From NCBI GenBank assembly GCA_002835545.1, contig PIZK01000016.1, positions 1 to 64,000 of the forward strand: a stretch of DNA of 64,000 bases. Reading direction: 5' to 3'. The stretch comes from Alteromonadales bacterium alter-6D02. Its GTDB lineage: Bacteria; Pseudomonadota; Gammaproteobacteria; Enterobacterales; Psychrobiaceae. This document shows positions 36,335-46,336 of this stretch, piece after piece. How positions within the stretch are numbered: position 1 is the first letter of the stretch; every line of letters begins with the position of its first letter. The translations under genes and the position numbers were made by a program. The notes beneath the pieces are model-generated. The model ran no database searches. It saw nothing but the letters and a program-made list of their open reading frames with translations, and was not told the DNA's origin.

Positions 36335-36994
36335 TTAATTCGGTATTCTAACCTTAGACGCCTTGCGATACATATACCAAGTAAGCCAGAGTGTTAGGGT
36401 TAAGCCAATGGCTGTGTAAATTGCAGGTTGTGGGTTTTCCACGGTGCTAATTGAGCCCGCGTAACTGGCGATGATAATGTAGGGCAGAGAACTAATACTC
36501 CAAGCTAGGATAAAGGTTTTGAATGGCATTTTGGTTAACCCTGCTAAGCACGCCGTTGCTTCCGGTAAAATGGGTATTGCACGAGAGAGTAATACCATCG
36601 AGAAACCATGACGTTTAAAGGTGTCGATTGCCTCATTACGATCATTTTCCTTTTTCATTAATAGCCTAAATACCCTTTGCCCATACTTATGACTTAAAAA
36701 ATAGCCGCAGGTTGCAGCGCCGAACATTCCTAGAGAGACAAAAAAAACCGCTAAGCTATGGCCTAAGAAGTAGCCTGCTAAAAGAGTAACGGTCAAGGTA
36801 GGAATGGCTATAAATAAATCTGCAAATAAAAATAGGGTGATTAAGATACCGACATAAAGCAGGTTAAGCTCCCCTACGTATGCAAACCAGCTTTCTATCT
36901 GCTCTGCGGTGAGCACACCGCTGAATTTAATCACTGCAAATGTTGCAGAGAAAAACAGAAAAATAACTAATAATAACTTGATAAATGATTTCAT
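36335..36994 (-). CDS. TVP38/TMEM64 (VTT-domain) family membrane protein
   Basis: The 219-aa integral membrane protein has about five or six helices and the VTT/SNARE-associated core: FADLFIAIPTLTVTLLAGYFLG, a glycine-rich GMFGAATCGYFLSHKYGQRV segment and LLSRAIPILPEATACLAGLTKM. The family includes DedA relatives and lipid scramblase-like proteins; a role in lipid or polyprenyl-phosphate movement is known for some members only. It is the last gene of the SDR-DUF2141-TVP38 operon (12 bp after the DUF2141 gene). Confidence 0.85.
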   Translation of the reverse strand: MKSFIKLLLVIFLFFSATFAVIKFSGVLTAEQIESWFAYVGELNLLYVGILITLFLFADLFIAIPTLTVTLLAGYFLGHSLAVFFVSLGMFGAATCGYFLSHKYGQRVFRLLMKKENDRNEAIDTFKRHGFSMVLLSRAIPILPEATACLAGLTKMPFKTFILAWSISSLPYIIIASYAGSISTVENPQPAIYTAIGLTLTLWLTWYMYRKASKVRIPN

Positions 36995-40753: not shown

Positions 40754-41479
40754 TTATTTACTCTGTAACAATCGATGTGCAAGAAGCTTTTTGAAATGGG
40801 GCCAAGCTTGTTTCGGCCACAGTATTTGATAGCGCCAACTTAAGTTGAGCCAGCCATATTGTTGATATTTACGAGCGCTGGTGGCAAGTGGGCTGCCAAG
40901 AGGGTAGCATTTTACGTGCTGTAATTTAGCTTGCCATACCAACAAGTGATCTTCACCAAAAGGCGCCGTTATATCGTAACAACCGAGTTGTTTAAATAGT
41001 TTATGCTCGATAGCAAAACCTTGATCGCCAAATGGAATCCCTAGCCAATTGGAGCGAAGTTTTGCTCCCCACTCGTTGAGTGTCAACCACTTTGATGCTT
41101 TATCGTAAAAGTATAAATCAAAATAAAACAATCCTTGGTTTGCTGATGGGCGCTTTATCGCGTTCAATAAGGCGTCAATGTTATGTTGGGTCAAGCGTGA
41201 GTCTGCGTGTAAAAACCACAAGTATGGGTTATTGGCTGCGAGAGCTCCTGCATTTAATTGCTGTGCCCGCCCTTGAACACTGCGAATCAGTTTTATCGTC
41301 AATCGTGGGAAACGCTCAATGATAGGGTGTATATCAATGTCGTGTCCCTTGGCTATCACGAAAATGACCTCAGTGGCCTGGGGCAGTAAAGCAAAGTCAT
41401 GACAGAGCTGTTGCCATTGAGTTTCATCAGGAGCAATTGGGATAATAATGGCAAGCAATTTGGTTGTAAACACGGTCAA
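40754..41479 (-). CDS. TIGR04283-like GT-A glycosyltransferase (arsenosugar-type)
   Basis: The 241-aa family 2 glycosyltransferase shows LLAIIIPIAPDE at the N-terminus, a PTLTIK/VQGRAQQLNAGALAA region, the metal-binding DxD-like LHADSRL (about residue 90) and IPFGDQGFAIEH and FGEDHLLVWQ acceptor motifs that characterise TIGR04283. That family is named for its recurrent link to arsenosugar biosynthesis genes. It is the last gene of the minus-strand arsenic cluster, starting 5 bp after the phosphorylase stop. The start is TTG 41479, or a nearby GTG/TTG. Predicted to transfer a sugar or a related group; the reaction is inferred. Confidence 0.82.
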   Translation of the reverse strand: MTVFTTKLLAIIIPIAPDETQWQQLCHDFALLPQATEVIFVIAKGHDIDIHPIIERFPRLTIKLIRSVQGRAQQLNAGALAANNPYLWFLHADSRLTQHNIDALLNAIKRPSANQGLFYFDLYFYDKASKWLTLNEWGAKLRSNWLGIPFGDQGFAIEHKLFKQLGCYDITAPFGEDHLLVWQAKLQHVKCYPLGSPLATSARKYQQYGWLNLSWRYQILWPKQAWPHFKKLLAHRLLQSK

Positions 41480-41484
41480 TATTA

Positions 41485-42333
41485 TTAACGTTGCAGCACT
41501 TCAAGTAGCTCTTGGTGCTGTGGCGTTCTTGCTGCTTCAGGCGTTAAGATGGCATTGTCTAAGCTATGGCGGCATGGGCAGTCTATTTCAGACTGATGTG
41601 TTAACAAGTATTGCTTTAAGACTTCTTTAGCACGCTCTAAGCTGGAACCGTAACGACTAATAACTTGTTCAACGGTGACATGCAGCGCGGGGTCGTCTTG
41701 CCAGCTATCATAATCTGTCGCGATAGCTAGGGTGGTGTAACAAAGTTGGGCCTCAGCGGCTAAAAAGACTTCGGGCACATTGGTCATCCCGACTAAGTCG
41801 GCCTGCATTGCATTCTTAAAGAATAAACTCTCAGCCTGAGTTCCTAATCGTGGACCGTCAACACAGACGTAAGTTTTATCACGGTGGATAGTTTGTTGCT
41901 GCTGGTGAGCGACTTCGGCAATGCCATCTGCCAGGCGCTGACAGGTCGGCTGCGCTGTTGATATATGAGCTGCTAAGCCATGACCGAAAAACGTTTTGTC
42001 ACGTGGACTTTTAATAAAGTCGATGTATTGATTTGGTAGTGATAAATCACCTGGTTCAATTTCTTGTTGCAGAGAGCCTGTAGCCGAAATACCGATTACT
42101 TGTGTTGCACCTAACTGCTTTAAGCTCCAGATATTGGCCCGGTAGTTTACTTCGTGAGGTAATAACTGATGATGTTCCCCGTGACGGGGAAGAAATAAGA
42201 TATTACTCCCATTAAACGTACCTTCGATGATATCTGCTGACGGATCACCAAAAGGGGTTGTCATGTGATGTGTGGATGTGATGCTAAGGCCATCGAGTTG
42301 ATAAATGCCTGTACCACCGATAATAGCTAACAT
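41485..42333 (-). CDS. MTA-phosphorylase-family nucleoside phosphorylase in the arsenic cluster
   Basis: The 282-aa protein belongs to the S-methyl-5'-thioadenosine/thioinosine phosphorylase family: LAIIGGTGIYQ, FLPRHGEHH (phosphate site), LGATQVIGISATGSL, GPRLGTQAE, VGMTNVPEVFLAAEAQLCY and IATDYDSW are all present. The family cleaves 5'-modified nucleosides with phosphate to base plus ribose-1-phosphate. Its place between the radical SAM enzyme and the TIGR04283 glycosyltransferase suggests the natural substrate is an arsenic-bearing 5'-deoxyadenosine rather than, or as well as, MTA; this is inference. It is separated by 123 bp from the radical SAM gene. Confidence 0.88.
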   Translation of the reverse strand: MLAIIGGTGIYQLDGLSITSTHHMTTPFGDPSADIIEGTFNGSNILFLPRHGEHHQLLPHEVNYRANIWSLKQLGATQVIGISATGSLQQEIEPGDLSLPNQYIDFIKSPRDKTFFGHGLAAHISTAQPTCQRLADGIAEVAHQQQQTIHRDKTYVCVDGPRLGTQAESLFFKNAMQADLVGMTNVPEVFLAAEAQLCYTTLAIATDYDSWQDDPALHVTVEQVISRYGSSLERAKEVLKQYLLTHQSEIDCPCRHSLDNAILTPEAARTPQHQELLEVLQR

Positions 42334-42456
42334 ATGCTTTCCTTGTTATGACGTCTGCCGTCAGTGTTGATTATTACAGTGAAAGTTTGGTCGGGAATCT
42401 CGTGATTCACTGTTTTATTTTATCTTGCACCTGATGGTAGCAATCAAGTTGTTGTA

Positions 42457-43383
42457 TTAACGCTCGCTACATGAACTGCCGTATGCAAAGCAGCTATAAC
42501 ACCGATGATGCTTCATGCTGATACGTTGTTGTTGCGCTATCACTAAGTCTTGACCTAGCCCATATTCTTTATCATCGTCGACGAGGGTACAAGCGTATAC
42601 TTGCATTTCACCTTGATATTTAATCACCATTTTTGAACTATGGCACATAAACTGACTTCGACTTTTTTCATTTTGATAATGGGTCATACAGTGCTCACTG
42701 ATATGTGGCACGTGCGGTAATGAACCCGGTGTGAGGAAGTCAGGGAAGGCAACAATATGAAGATCTTGGGGCAACCCATTTAATTGAAATAATTGCCTAA
42801 AACCCTGTTCAATCTTGGCTTGGTTTTCATCTTTTTCCATATGCCTAGCTATGGAAACATGAAAGCCTGCCTGATGGAGCGCTATTAAGCCCGACAGAGC
42901 TTTTGCAAAGTTACCTTCTCCACGGTGGGCGTCATGCGCAGTGGGGTCTAAATGGTCAAAACTAACCCTTAATGATATAGGGTGAGGGTTATCACTTAAT
43001 GCCCTTAACGACTCAAAGCGCTTAATCAGTGGCTCCGTTCCATTGGTTAATACTAATACGGGGCAATGCTGTGAGGCGTAGTCGATCATTTTGATAATAT
43101 CTTTGACTAGAAAGGGTTCGCCTCCAGTAAAAGAAAACTGCTCAACCCCCATGCTGATTGCTTGGTCGATAAAAGGCTTTGCCTCTTCAAACTTGGGGGC
43201 TGCTAAGCGTTTATCGCTAGGACTTGAACCCTCTAAACAAAAATCACAGGCTAAATTACAGCGGGTGCCAGTGTGAAACCACAGCTCTTTTAATTTTCCG
43301 GGCTGTATATAGCCACGCGGTTCATTAGCGGGCGTGGTATACCATTCCTGTGACTTGTCGGTCATCTTGATAATTGCTGTCAT
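42457..43383 (-). CDS. Radical SAM enzyme of the arsenic-methylation cluster
   Basis: From ATG 43383 this is 308 aa. The radical SAM [4Fe-4S] motif is Cys42-x3-Cys46-x2-Cys49 (RCNLACDFC), followed by the SAM-binding GGEP (FSFTGGEPFL). The C-terminal 80 residues carry six cysteines (CMTHY, FMCHS, YACTL, then CYSCFAYGSSC), suggesting a SPASM/twitch-like auxiliary cluster. The frame also opens at 43401, but the ATG at 43383 has a perfect AGGAGG overlapping the arsM stop. It lies 8 bp after arsM. In arsenosugar pathways ArsS adds the 5'-deoxyadenosyl group to dimethylarsenic; this enzyme could do that, though its domain layout differs from the ArsS I know, so the role is inferred. Confidence 0.8.
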   Translation of the reverse strand: MTAIIKMTDKSQEWYTTPANEPRGYIQPGKLKELWFHTGTRCNLACDFCLEGSSPSDKRLAAPKFEEAKPFIDQAISMGVEQFSFTGGEPFLVKDIIKMIDYASQHCPVLVLTNGTEPLIKRFESLRALSDNPHPISLRVSFDHLDPTAHDAHRGEGNFAKALSGLIALHQAGFHVSIARHMEKDENQAKIEQGFRQLFQLNGLPQDLHIVAFPDFLTPGSLPHVPHISEHCMTHYQNEKSRSQFMCHSSKMVIKYQGEMQVYACTLVDDDKEYGLGQDLVIAQQQRISMKHHRCYSCFAYGSSCSER

Positions 43384-43391
43384 AGATCCTC

Positions 43392-44468
43392 CTAACAACA
43401 ACCGCCACCACCGCTATTTACTGCGCTGCTTTGGTCAAAGGGTAAGCTTGTACCGCAATCGGCATAGATTCCATAGTGGGTATCGAAGTTACCGATAAAG
43501 GTAAAGTGTGGGGCAAAGCGGGTGTCATGGAGCATACGCCAGGTATTTCCACATACTGGGAACACTTTACCTGTTTCAATATGATGATGTTTATCTAGGG
43601 TAAATGCATGAGGGTGGTGCTCAATAGTTCCTTGATAAATTACTGCTTGGCCATAATCTTCACAGTGACTTTCTAATTCAGGGAGTTTAAATAGGCGGTA
43701 AGTAGCAGAATAAAAGTCAATATGCTTTATTTTTTCTTGTAGCATTGGGTTATCAACTGTGATTGGACGATCCTCAACCAAGCGTGGGTCGGTAAAGCCT
43801 GCCGCTTTAGCGAGATTAATGAAATCGTTCCAATATAAAGCGCCGCTTAAGCATTCGCCATAAAGAAGAGGATCATCGACTAGGTCTTTTTGAACGCGTT
43901 TATTGGCATAAACGTCACTAAAATATAATTCACCACCGGGCTTTAATAAGTCAAATGCGTGCTTTAAAACAGCAGCCTTGTCTGAACATAGATTGATGAC
44001 GCAATTTGAGACAATCACATCAAAACTATTTGGCGCTAAATCTAATAGATCGAGTTGCTCTAAATAGCCTTTTTTAAATTGAGTGTTTGGTTGTTGGTAT
44101 CCAAATTTTTGTTGATGATACTCAATGTGACGGTTAGCGACGTCAAGTTGTTCGTCCGTCATGTCTACGCCGATCACTTCCCCTTGTTCACCGACGAGTT
44201 GGGCAAGAGCGTAACAATCGCGGCCCGAACCACTGCCTAAGTCAAGAATGCGTGTGCCAAGAAGTTGCTCAGGGCTAACGAGGCCACAACCATAATATCG
44301 CATCATGACTTCATCATGAATGTTACTTAAGATGGGTTTGAGGTACTGCGGCATTGCATCATCGGTACAACAGGCATTCGTTTGCAAATCATGGGAACCT
44401 TGCAATGTTTGACCGTAATATTGTTGTACTTGTTCGTTTTGCGCTGTCGCGGCTGAAGCTTTGCTCAT
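43392..44468 (-). CDS. arsM: Arsenite S-adenosylmethionine methyltransferase
   Basis: The 358-aa product is ArsM: SAM-binding ILDLGSGSGRDCYAL (about residues 74-88) and cysteines in the family positions, Cys61 (RYYGCGLVSP), Cys156 (VSNCVINLC) and Cys206 (YGECLSGALYW), with the second and third 50 residues apart as in characterised ArsM. Cys33-Cys34 (NACCTDD) corresponds to the N-terminal cysteine pair. It methylates As(III) stepwise to mono- and dimethyl species. The chain ends in a GGGGCC tail, a possible metal(loid)-binding element. It lies 10 bp after the TIGR04282 gene and 8 bp before the radical SAM gene, in one operon. No arsR or arsB is adjacent. Confidence 0.92.
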   Translation of the reverse strand: MSKASAATAQNEQVQQYYGQTLQGSHDLQTNACCTDDAMPQYLKPILSNIHDEVMMRYYGCGLVSPEQLLGTRILDLGSGSGRDCYALAQLVGEQGEVIGVDMTDEQLDVANRHIEYHQQKFGYQQPNTQFKKGYLEQLDLLDLAPNSFDVIVSNCVINLCSDKAAVLKHAFDLLKPGGELYFSDVYANKRVQKDLVDDPLLYGECLSGALYWNDFINLAKAAGFTDPRLVEDRPITVDNPMLQEKIKHIDFYSATYRLFKLPELESHCEDYGQAVIYQGTIEHHPHAFTLDKHHHIETGKVFPVCGNTWRMLHDTRFAPHFTFIGNFDTHYGIYADCGTSLPFDQSSAVNSGGGGCC

Positions 44469-44478
44469 ATATAGATGC

Positions 44479-45153
44479 TCAATGGTTAAAGTGGTTAAGG
44501 AATGAGATTAGTTGTTGCGCAAGGACTTGTCTTGCAGGGCGTTTATCATCGACTAGCTTAGCCCTTAATTGTTGCAAATCAATGAGTGTATCTACATCTG
44601 ATGTTACATCGCCTTGAGCCACAGACAATTGATTGGTTTGGCATAAACGTGCTAGTGCACTGCCTAGTTGTGCTGTACTCCAAGGTAATAGTTGCATATC
44701 AGGCCAAGGAACACGATTAGCCATTAAGGTGACACCGCCATCGATTGCTGGGGTGAGTGCTATGTCATGTTTTATTAACAATCTTGCTGCTTGAAGATAG
44801 TGTTCTGGCATTAAACTTGGCGCATCACTTCCCATATAAATTAGCTGCTGGTGGCCTTGCTGTCTTAGTTGCTGGTCGAGTTGATTGATCCGCTCACCTA
44901 AATTTCCTGCAGGTTGTGCAACAATGGTAACGGAACGGCTTAATAAGCTTTGTGCCCATAGATTATCTTGTTGGCTTGCCGGGGAGATGATGACATGCCC
45001 AGGCCATTGCTCTAAATCTTCCAGTGCACAGCGTAAAAATAGTTCGGCAAATACCAATGCTTGCTCTGCGCCAATCGATGATGCAAGGCGTTGTTTGCCA
45101 TGGTGTAAGGCAGGCTTTTTACAAAGTAACACTAAACTGGGTAATGGAGACAT
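44479..45153 (-). CDS. TIGR04282-like GT-A family protein (arsenosugar-type)
   Basis: The 224-aa protein has the DUF2064/TIGR04282 layout: LVLLCKKPALHHGKQRLA at the start (nucleotide-sugar binding), a central YMGSDAPSLMPEHY (DxD-like, about residue 110) and DGGVTLMANRVPW, ending in a SDVDTLIDLQQL element. The family is a GT-A fold related to glycosyltransferase 2 and cofC/mobA-type nucleotidyltransferases and is named for its link to arsenosugar loci. It is the first gene of the arsenic cluster and is 10 bp before arsM. Enzymatic role unproven. Confidence 0.82.
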   Translation of the reverse strand: MSPLPSLVLLCKKPALHHGKQRLASSIGAEQALVFAELFLRCALEDLEQWPGHVIISPASQQDNLWAQSLLSRSVTIVAQPAGNLGERINQLDQQLRQQGHQQLIYMGSDAPSLMPEHYLQAARLLIKHDIALTPAIDGGVTLMANRVPWPDMQLLPWSTAQLGSALARLCQTNQLSVAQGDVTSDVDTLIDLQQLRAKLVDDKRPARQVLAQQLISFLNHFNH

Positions 45154-45282: not shown

Positions 45283-45963
45283 TTATAAAAAGGCAATAAA
45301 CCAAGCAAACAACGGAGCAAGTATAGCGGTCATTACACCGCAAATAACTAATGCTAATGAACTAAATGCGCCTTGGGTTTGACCCGCTTCGATTGCCTTA
45401 GCTGTTCCAATGGCATGTGCACTGCATCCCATCGCAACCCCTTGCGCTTGTTTATTGGTGATATTAAATAACTTTAGAATCTGAAAACCGAAAACTGCAC
45501 CCACTAAGCCAACGAATATCACTACCGCAGCGCTTAAAGAGGCAATGCCACCTACTTGATTAGCTATTGCCATAGCGATAGGGCTAGTAACTGATTTAGG
45601 GAGTAATGATAATAACAACTGTAAATCGTTCGTCATTAACCATGCGGTGGCTGTGCCACTGATCAATGCCATAAAAACACCAACGCTGCAGCTAAGGAAT
45701 ATGGCAAATTTTTGTGCTTTGATTTGCTGCAACTGCAGAAAGAGAGGAATAGCTAATGCGACGACTGCTGGCTCTAATAATGCAATAAATAGTGTATTGG
45801 CTTGAGCGTAATCTTGATAATCTAAGGGTGTAACGCTAAATAGAGTAATGAAAGTAACAATACTCCACAATAGTGGATTGGCCAAAGGGTGATTGAATGA
45901 TGCCAAAAGCCATTTGCACCCTAAGAAGACGATAACAGTGGCTAATAGATAGCTATAGATCAT
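45283..45963 (-). CDS. lrgB: LrgB/CidB family membrane protein
   Basis: The 226-aa protein has about six or seven transmembrane helices and the LrgB blocks LLPKSVTSPIAMAIANQVGG and GVAMGCSAHAIGTAKAIEAG, the latter highly conserved. LrgAB/CidAB proteins are holin-like or small-metabolite transporters (a relative in plastids exports glycolate). It overlaps lrgA by 11 bp. The arsenic cluster begins 130 bp downstream on the same strand. Confidence 0.92.
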   Translation of the reverse strand: MIYSYLLATVIVFLGCKWLLASFNHPLANPLLWSIVTFITLFSVTPLDYQDYAQANTLFIALLEPAVVALAIPLFLQLQQIKAQKFAIFLSCSVGVFMALISGTATAWLMTNDLQLLLSLLPKSVTSPIAMAIANQVGGIASLSAAVVIFVGLVGAVFGFQILKLFNITNKQAQGVAMGCSAHAIGTAKAIEAGQTQGAFSSLALVICGVMTAILAPLFAWFIAFL

Positions 45964-46336
45964 TATGGTTTCCTTTTATTAGGTATTGGTAGAGTTTTCC
46001 AACACAAATAAGGACAATAAAGGTACTCACTAAGCTGCTTATTACGATAACAGGCCAATGATTCGACAAAAGTTGTAGGTGTTCTAGTAACCCTACACCA
46101 ACAGGAACAAAAAAAAGTGTGATGTAGCTCAATAGGAGATTTGTGCTTGGTTGCACCAGTTTTAGTGGGATTATGCGTAAACTTAAACAAGTAAATAGTA
46201 ATAATAATCCCCAAATACTGCCCGGTATTGGAAGACCGGTGAGTTGGTTAAGTGCCTTTCCTAGAAAGAGAAATGTTAGAATTACAGCAATGCTTCTGCT
46301 GAAATGGATTAACGTTTTAAAGGCATTAGACCACAT
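45953..46336 (-). CDS. lrgA: LrgA/CidA family membrane protein
   Basis: The 127-aa protein has four hydrophobic helices and the family motif GLPIPGSIWGLLLLF plus LFFVPVGVGLLEHL. It is the small partner of LrgB; the pair is thought to form a membrane channel or transporter linked to murein hydrolase control or carboxylate export. It is the first gene of the lrgAB unit, and the promoter should be in the 245-bp gap toward tkt. Confidence 0.9.
   Translation of the reverse strand: MWSNAFKTLIHFSRSIAVILTFLFLGKALNQLTGLPIPGSIWGLLLLFTCLSLRIIPLKLVQPSTNLLLSYITLFFVPVGVGLLEHLQLLSNHWPVIVISSLVSTFIVLICVGKLYQYLIKGNHNDL

Follow-up and report, generated by a model that had tools for sequence, protein, structure and literature searches.

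How an adenosylated arsenical loses its adenine on the way to an arsenosugar is the question raised by a gene cluster at positions 40,754 to 45,153 of a 64,000-nucleotide stretch from Alteromonadales bacterium alter-6D02 (assembly GCA_002835545.1, contig PIZK01000016.1, positions 1 to 64,000), the whole of which is called the window here. ArsM and ArsS account for arsenic methylation and adenosylation, and the step from adenosyl-arsenical to arsenosugar is without an assigned enzyme in the literature searched. In the passages of PMC10456119 concerned with this step, an adenosyl nucleosidase is only proposed, for one algal arsenolipid. The likely role of the compact gene set in this marine bacterium is the conversion of toxic arsenic to ribose sugars that bear arsenic, and its phosphorylase is a candidate enzyme for the removal of adenine from the adenosyl-arsenical. 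Phosphorolysis, unlike hydrolysis, would keep the sugar activated and thus connect to nucleotide-sugar chemistry, and a single phosphorylase clade that accompanies two types of radical S-adenosylmethionine (SAM) protein defines which gene, substrate, and product should be tested. A literature search, from which most subscription papers were excluded, found no published phosphorylase in arsenosugar biosynthesis, and prior publication is possible.

Gene content and proposed pathway of the operon

The five genes are transcribed from the minus strand in the order TIGR04282-like gene, arsM, radical SAM gene, MTAP-type phosphorylase gene, and TIGR04283-like gene (Table 1), and are separated by 10, 8, 123, and 5 bp. 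The first-pass annotation, made from the sequence alone, had placed five genes on one strand with the first three 8 to 10 bp apart, and the five open reading frames (ORFs) and the first two gaps agree with it. The radical SAM ORF has an ATG start at 43383 and a longer alternative TTG start at 43401, and the TIGR04283-like ORF starts with TTG. Because four of the gene types (TIGR04282-like, arsM, radical SAM, and MTAP-type) occur together in 11 of 23 related loci (L055 and L056 were dropped as the same loci as L010 and L009), the grouping is not due to chance.

We consider it somewhat better than an even chance that this operon makes arsenic-bearing ribose by methylation, adenosylation, phosphorolysis, activation, and transfer, every chemical step of which we infer. 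Arsenite (from arsenate, for which the operon once had a reductase) would be converted to a dimethylated species by ArsM, and the ArsS-like radical SAM enzyme would put the 5'-deoxyadenosyl group of SAM on the arsenic to give 5'-deoxy-5'-dimethylarsino-adenosine. The MTAP-type phosphorylase would exchange adenine for phosphate, yielding 5-deoxy-5-dimethylarsinoyl-alpha-ribose-1-phosphate; the TIGR04282-like protein would turn this arsenic-bearing ribose-1-phosphate into a nucleotide sugar; and the TIGR04283-like glycosyltransferase would move the sugar, with inversion, onto an acceptor (glycerol or a lipid, for example), forming a beta-riboside. The phosphorylase product would have the alpha configuration, and family 2 glycosyltransferases (GT2) generally invert configuration. 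The known microalgal arsenosugars are 5-dimethylarsinoyl-beta-D-ribofuranosides (PMC10456119). The route of methylation, deoxyadenosylation, phosphorolytic removal of adenine, and sugar elaboration had been suggested in the first-pass annotation and is still the best-supported reading, although its labels for the radical SAM protein, the phosphorylase, and the TIGR04282-like protein had to be corrected.

Table 1. Features of the operon, in order of transcription
Feature	Position in the window	Strand	Basis
TIGR04282-like protein (DUF2064), 224 amino acids, probable nucleotidyltransferase	44479..45153	-	family scans, PF09837, 3cgx match, model, fold search
ArsM-type arsenite methyltransferase, 358 amino acids	43392..44468	-	family scans, 5evj match, Cys alignment with CmArsM
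Radical SAM protein, 308 amino acids, remote ArsS relative	42457..43383	-	family scans, alignment, profile comparison, model
arsC remnant (C-terminal end of a thioredoxin-type arsenate reductase gene, rest deleted)	42380..42454	-	tblastn
MTAP-type nucleoside phosphorylase, arsenic-linked clade, 282 amino acids, GPRLGT, adenine-type TDYD	41485..42333	-	family scans, alignment, tree
TIGR04283-like family 2 glycosyltransferase, 241 amino acids	40754..41479	-	family scan, PF00535

We link the operon to arsenic because ArsM has four catalytic cysteines, arsC is present in 11 of the 23 related loci, and the window holds an arsC remnant. The best solved relative of ArsM is 5evj (5e-101), and the match to solved arsenite methyltransferases is nearly full length. 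Cys33, Cys61, Cys156, and Cys206 align with Cys44, Cys72, Cys174, and Cys224 of CmArsM, i.e., the protein has the four-cysteine pattern of ArsM, in which we take Cys44 to be the fourth conserved cysteine; Cys72, Cys174, and Cys224 are named among the conserved cysteines of CmArsM in PMC12608789. ArsM scores 94.7 bits against the arsenosugar-type ArsM model NF038099 (cut-off 400) and 139.2 bits against the arsinothricin ArsM model NF040538 (cut-off 500). The arsenate reductase of the related loci is of the thioredoxin type, with CTGN[SA]CRS and C-x6-C motifs in all copies; one representative scores 145.7 bits with TIGR02691, under the cut-off of 174.3.

In the related loci with arsC, this gene sits between the radical SAM and phosphorylase genes, and because the 123-bp space at that place in the window holds a match to the end of ArsC, we conclude that arsC was lost by deletion, leaving the gap. 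In tblastn searches, ArsC of L009 matches positions 42490-42383 (E = 1.3e-4, 53% identity) and ArsC of L010 matches positions 42454-42380 (E = 0.002); the matching frame contains a stop, and the score is 32.7 bits, whereas 60 shuffled versions of the stretch gave no score above 18.9. The remnant was matched (E of 1 or less) by only 2 of the 11 ArsC queries tried. An ArsC search of the host genome gave one weak match (3.4e-6, 33%).

These observations bear on two other explanations. The phosphorylase might aid arsenate reduction, i.e., arsenolysis of a nucleoside would give an easily reduced ribose-1-arsenate, and the enzyme could thereby replace the lost arsC of the window; purine nucleoside phosphorylase reduces arsenate in vitro (PMC12608789). 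We regard this as extremely unlikely, since arsC is still present in 11 of the 13 phosphorylase loci, so that the phosphorylase is no substitute for it, and since the sugar-handling genes and the phosphorylase copies beside arsS would be left unexplained. It is very unlikely, given the cysteines of ArsM and the frequency of arsC, that the operon acts on a non-arsenic substrate such as another metalloid, even though the arsenosugar names of TIGR04282 and TIGR04283 presumably rest on genome context and a 34% identical radical SAM relative in Roseomonas haemaphysalidis adjoins a phosphonate-type transporter.

The phosphorylase and its clade

The phosphorylase is the strongest evidence that the operon makes arsenic-bearing ribose. 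Among the families listed, it is the sole protein of the operon above a curated NCBIfam cut-off, passing TIGR01694 (MTAP) by a narrow margin (278 bits, cut-off 274.85), and this family is not specific, as six of eight thioinosine phosphorylases scanned also pass. With NF006599 (S-methyl-5'-thioinosine phosphorylase), it scores 208.1 bits, under the cut-off of 223, while the copies of L156 and L205 score 210.6 and 216.3 and the L157 copy beside ArsS scores exactly 223. A nucleoside phosphorylase had been annotated at first; its TIGR01694 score makes it one of the MTAP type. Because the MTAP family acts on 5'-deoxy-5'-substituted adenosines, this type fits the proposed arsenonucleoside substrate better than a general nucleoside phosphorylase.

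The GPRFS[ST] loop of MTAP, which we take from the residue roles in the human MTAP active site to be a base/sugar-binding loop, lacks its Phe-Ser in the window phosphorylase and reads GPRLGT instead. In the 14 aligned arsenic-linked copies (matches with fewer than 200 aligned columns were excluded), GPRLG[ST] is shared by all, the adenine-type acidic pair TD[YF]D is kept, and an extra residue precedes the 5'-pocket region. Across 84 loci, in which some genes are counted twice, GPRLG[ST] is found in 17 (15 distinct genes, all arsenic-linked) and other motifs in 65; the motif is unreadable in L070 and L072, the latter a contig-cut arsenic-linked copy. In the other copies the motif is either GPRLET, seen in 24 loci, or, in the adenosine type, GP[RQ]FS[ST] and close variants of it. 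NCBIfam assigns all eight scanned GPRLET copies to the thioinosine phosphorylases and both scanned GPQFSS copies to the thioadenosine phosphorylases.

In the tree, built without L162, L115, and every row marked as unlinked, the 15 arsenic-linked genes form one clade against 33 housekeeping genes (support 100/99). Long branches meet (L200 with the arsenic-linked clade), and hence the sister group is unsure. The ArsS-linked genes fall at two places within the clade, and the branch that parts the Cupriavidus gene from the other two ArsS-linked genes is partly supported (96/66 and 87/58). Those two lie directly beside canonical arsS in two genomes of one family (G108, 52% identity; G225, 54%), with match ends 36 and 32 bp apart, and on plasmid p1 of Cupriavidus sp. 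KK10 a 56% identical copy begins 3.6 kb after arsS, past one opposite-strand ORF. The phosphorylase seems, from this placement, to have changed its radical SAM partner during evolution, as would be expected if it acts on a common product. The KK10 locus (L205, plasmid p1 977902-994747), from a betaproteobacterium, is a good named source for testing the phosphorylase. Its region holds a phosphate-permease-like gene, arsM, a peroxidase-like gene, arsS (465.7 bits), and genes for an FAD oxidoreductase, a VTT protein, and the phosphorylase, then a second radical SAM gene and DUF547.

Within the order, 13 genomes (9 of them from one genus) have a phosphorylase that is at least 52% identical; every one of them is among the 16 carriers of the window-type radical SAM gene, and none is among the 378 others. 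A phylum-wide survey added no new arsenic-type copy, the matches listed being at most 44% identical apart from G000 and G139. Raw MTAP presence (123 of 134 ArsS genomes, 71 of 140 others) was discarded as support, many of the unlinked gammaproteobacterial matches being thioinosine phosphorylases. The order-wide presence of MTAP-like genes (16 of 16 carriers, 5 of 378 others) is weakened by the same enzymes, and the 13 closer copies were relied on.

We regard as doubtful the explanation that the phosphorylase merely clears inhibitory 5'-deoxyadenosine from the radical SAM enzyme, or recycles adenine, with the arsenic product not its substrate. Its gene does lie downstream of the radical SAM gene, and 5'-methylthioadenosine (MTA) phosphorylase cleaves 5'-deoxyadenosine, as does MtnN in vitro (PMC8102628). 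The host has three PNP_UDP_1 genes, one a clear MtnN. Against this explanation, 12 of the 20 radical SAM genomes have an MtnN above the cut-off, 9 of these 12 being from one genus, so that there are few independent cases. A linked phosphorylase is present in 11 of the 12 genomes with MtnN against 2 of the 8 without (Fisher 0.004, relatedness uncorrected), some of the latter being incomplete drafts (G221, 82%). The pattern leans toward, and does not prove, a need for the ribose-1-phosphate product. By-product disposal also sits poorly with a clade that has its own motif, GPRLG[ST], and that accompanies ArsS as well.

Besides the limits of the MtnN comparison, several results weigh against a pathway to arsenic-bearing ribose. 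The radical SAM protein scores 51 bits with the ArsS family TIGR04167, whose cut-off is 300, and the two sugar-handling proteins are under their curated cut-offs (116.3 bits against 134 for TIGR04282, 164.5 against 182 for TIGR04283). A phosphorylase of at least 50% identity is found in only 2 of the 134 ArsS genomes of the class, so that the other 132, the great majority, must rely on some other means. Among the 20 radical SAM carriers, seven (G288, G294, G310, G133, G140, G202, and G221) are without an arsenic-type phosphorylase; their MTAP-like genes are all of other types, and no such gene stands close to the radical SAM gene within the stretches examined. NCBIfam classes the ones in G288, G294, and G310 as thioinosine phosphorylases. 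Four of the 23 related loci (L012, L013, L014, and L052) have ArsM and the radical SAM gene with neither the phosphorylase nor either sugar gene. In the class, ArsS occurs in 0 of 6 carriers and in 134 of 268 other genomes (Fisher p 0.03, relatedness uncorrected), but mutual exclusion with ArsS is weak: 16 of the 20 carriers belong to one order, and none of the three members of that order in the class sample has ArsS.

Radical SAM protein, sugar-handling genes, and neighborhoods

Arsenic adenosylation in arsenosugar biosynthesis is reportedly catalyzed by a radical SAM enzyme (PMC12159101). The window protein scores 67 bits with PF04055, above the cut-off of that family, and has a CX3CX2C motif at residues 42-49 and C-terminal cysteines at 232, 247, 265, 295, 298, and 305. 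The CX3CX2C motif is invariant in 19 aligned relatives, and several of the C-terminal cysteines are also kept. A profile comparison with 15 ArsS sequences gave a probability of 98.5 over 177 columns. The C-terminal motif HRCYSCFAYGSSC aligns with DHCYGCTAGQGSSC of ArsS (C...C...HCYxC...SSC type) only in a permissive or a global profile alignment, which is then full length, and this correspondence is suggestive only. The predicted structure (predicted local distance difference test [pLDDT] 87.5) retrieves generic radical SAM enzymes only (SkfB, BlsE, MoaA, SuiB, and viperin), and a sequence search of the PDB with one ArsS found no ArsS structure. By these comparisons, the protein is of a separate subfamily remotely homologous to ArsS, a distant relative rather than the ArsS-type enzyme first annotated; the gene name arsS was rejected on the TIGR04167 score and on the finding that none of the 20 carrier genomes has any protein above the ArsS cut-off. 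Members of the subfamily were identified in 6 of the 274 class genomes and 16 of the 394 order genomes surveyed, each count including one distant member of 34-36% identity (G202 and G662, respectively), and ArsS is above its cut-off in 134 of the 274. The locus also points to an additional route in marine gammaproteobacteria, one that does without canonical ArsS.

Two plasmids carry further relatives. On pHP-187 of Marinobacter adhaerens HP15 (L206, about 90109-90988), an unannotated stretch of the window type (52%) lies in two pieces, and the 9 kb flanking it on each side hold no arsM-like ORF. On p546-1 of Roseomonas haemaphysalidis (L207), the 34% relative is part of a row of genes that includes a further radical SAM gene, TIGR04282, DUF547, and the phosphonate-type transporter, which is of the ABC type.

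The radical SAM enzyme might be ArsL-like and transfer the 3-amino-3-carboxypropyl group of SAM to arsenic, as for arsinothricin, with the phosphorylase recycling the by-product MTA, to which an MTAP is suited. ArsM and radical SAM genes are adjacent in arsQML too (PMC8552651). On the other hand, BgArsL, compared by its description in that paper, has 428 residues with its cysteine motif at 194-201, against 308 residues and 42-49 here; ArsM is far below the arsinothricin cut-off (139 against 500); the sugar genes would be left without a role; and canonical ArsS is accompanied by the same phosphorylase clade. We therefore hold an ArsL-like reaction to be quite improbable.

For the pathway to arsenic-bearing ribose, the TIGR04282-like protein more likely activates a sugar phosphate than transfers a sugar, because its predicted fold is that of a nucleotidyltransferase and not, as in the first-pass annotation, of a glycosyltransferase. 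Its model (pLDDT 96.5) is nearest to 3cgx, a putative nucleotide-diphospho-sugar transferase, followed by MM2497, 3-phospho-D-glycerate guanylyltransferase, Rv2983, and CMP-Kdo synthetases. From this fold we infer that the protein may carry out nucleotide activation of the arsenic-bearing ribose-1-phosphate.

Among the 23 loci, ArsM is found with the radical SAM gene in 19 and the arsenic-type phosphorylase in 13, in 12 of these with the window-type radical SAM gene; in L050 (G662) the phosphorylase neighbors the distant radical SAM gene together with genes of the TIGR04283- and TIGR04282-like types. Sixteen loci have a TIGR04282-like gene, and nine have a TIGR04283-like gene of 27-54% identity. 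L053 (G202) has a radical SAM gene (36%) that the 23-locus counts omit owing to the picking of non-overlapping ORFs, and the stretches of L010, L012, L041, and L048 end at contig ends. In seven loci, a GT2 gene (its representative resembling AglJ and dolichyl-phosphate hexose transferase) and a GT87 gene take the place of the TIGR04283-like gene, and six of the seven also have a synthase-like GT2 gene. Because no locus combines both types in the stretch examined, the acceptors may differ between them. These extended clusters (L038, L039, L041-L044, and L049), whose neighbor families were scanned on one representative each, in some cases have further genes before the TIGR04282-like gene, namely, synthase-like GT2, DUF547, and FAD/ferredoxin-type genes. 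We consider it conceivable, if rather unlikely, that a dedicated arsenonucleoside phosphorylase family directs arsenic-bearing ribose into nucleotide-sugar chemistry and has served two radical SAM lineages, and that the extended clusters, with their polyprenyl-phosphate-type GT2 and GT87 genes, build arsenic-ribose into a polyprenyl-linked envelope glycan, not a small glycoside.

Neighboring genes were also recorded. An LrgA/LrgB-type gene pair (window 45283-46336) lies directly upstream of the operon, and a VTT-domain membrane protein (36335-36994), about 4 kb away, weakly resembles (30%) a VTT gene of G221 that lies close to the radical SAM gene in that genome. A VTT/FAD-oxidoreductase neighbor (57-71% identity) is common to 4 of the 23 radical SAM loci and to ArsS loci. 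In L147 (G210, from 3918), about 2.6 kb separate canonical ArsS from a window-type ArsM (63%), and a VTT/FAD-oxidoreductase fusion lies in this interval. ArsS-family genes stand near DoxX, DUF2063, and an MbnB/TglH/ChrH-type enzyme gene for ribosomally synthesized and post-translationally modified peptides in L165 and L170 (G110 and G227; families scanned in L165 only), where the ArsS fold is perhaps put to a different use, and beside FIST-domain and endonuclease III-like genes in L167 and L172 (G143 and G256; families scanned in L167 only). None of these four genomes has an MTAP match.

Comparison with known systems

The canonical arsenosugar-type locus (arsM, TIGR04167 arsS, and TIGR04282- and TIGR04283-like genes, e.g., L139) has arsM, a radical SAM gene, and both types of sugar gene in common with the window, and the same proposed order of reactions. 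The radical SAM proteins are remotely homologous, the VTT/FAD neighbor is shared by some loci, and the window phosphorylase clade is present in three ArsS-bearing records. The window locus differs in that its radical SAM protein belongs to another subfamily, not found with ArsS (0 of 20), in its dedicated phosphorylase and, in related loci, an arsenate reductase, and in its ArsM, to which the full-length canonical-locus ArsM proteins are only 29-32% identical, except for L147 (63%).

In arsQML of Burkholderia gladioli, as described in PMC8552651, arsM likewise adjoins a radical SAM gene. The radical SAM proteins of the two systems differ in length and cysteine position; the window operon, which has sugar genes and a phosphorylase in addition, is not directly flanked by a permease gene. 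The algal-type ArsM (5evj; CmArsM, 4fr0) is matched over nearly its full length, with the four conserved cysteines, whereas the window ArsM stands in a bacterial operon. With MtnP/MTAP (TIGR01694), the window phosphorylase shares a score above the family cut-off and the adenine-type TDYD, at no more than 44% identity to housekeeping members. In contrast to these, the arsenic-linked copies have GPRLG[ST] for GP[RQ]FS[ST] and the extra residue before the 5'-pocket region, form a separate clade, and show linkage to arsenic genes, in many cases in MtnN-bearing hosts.

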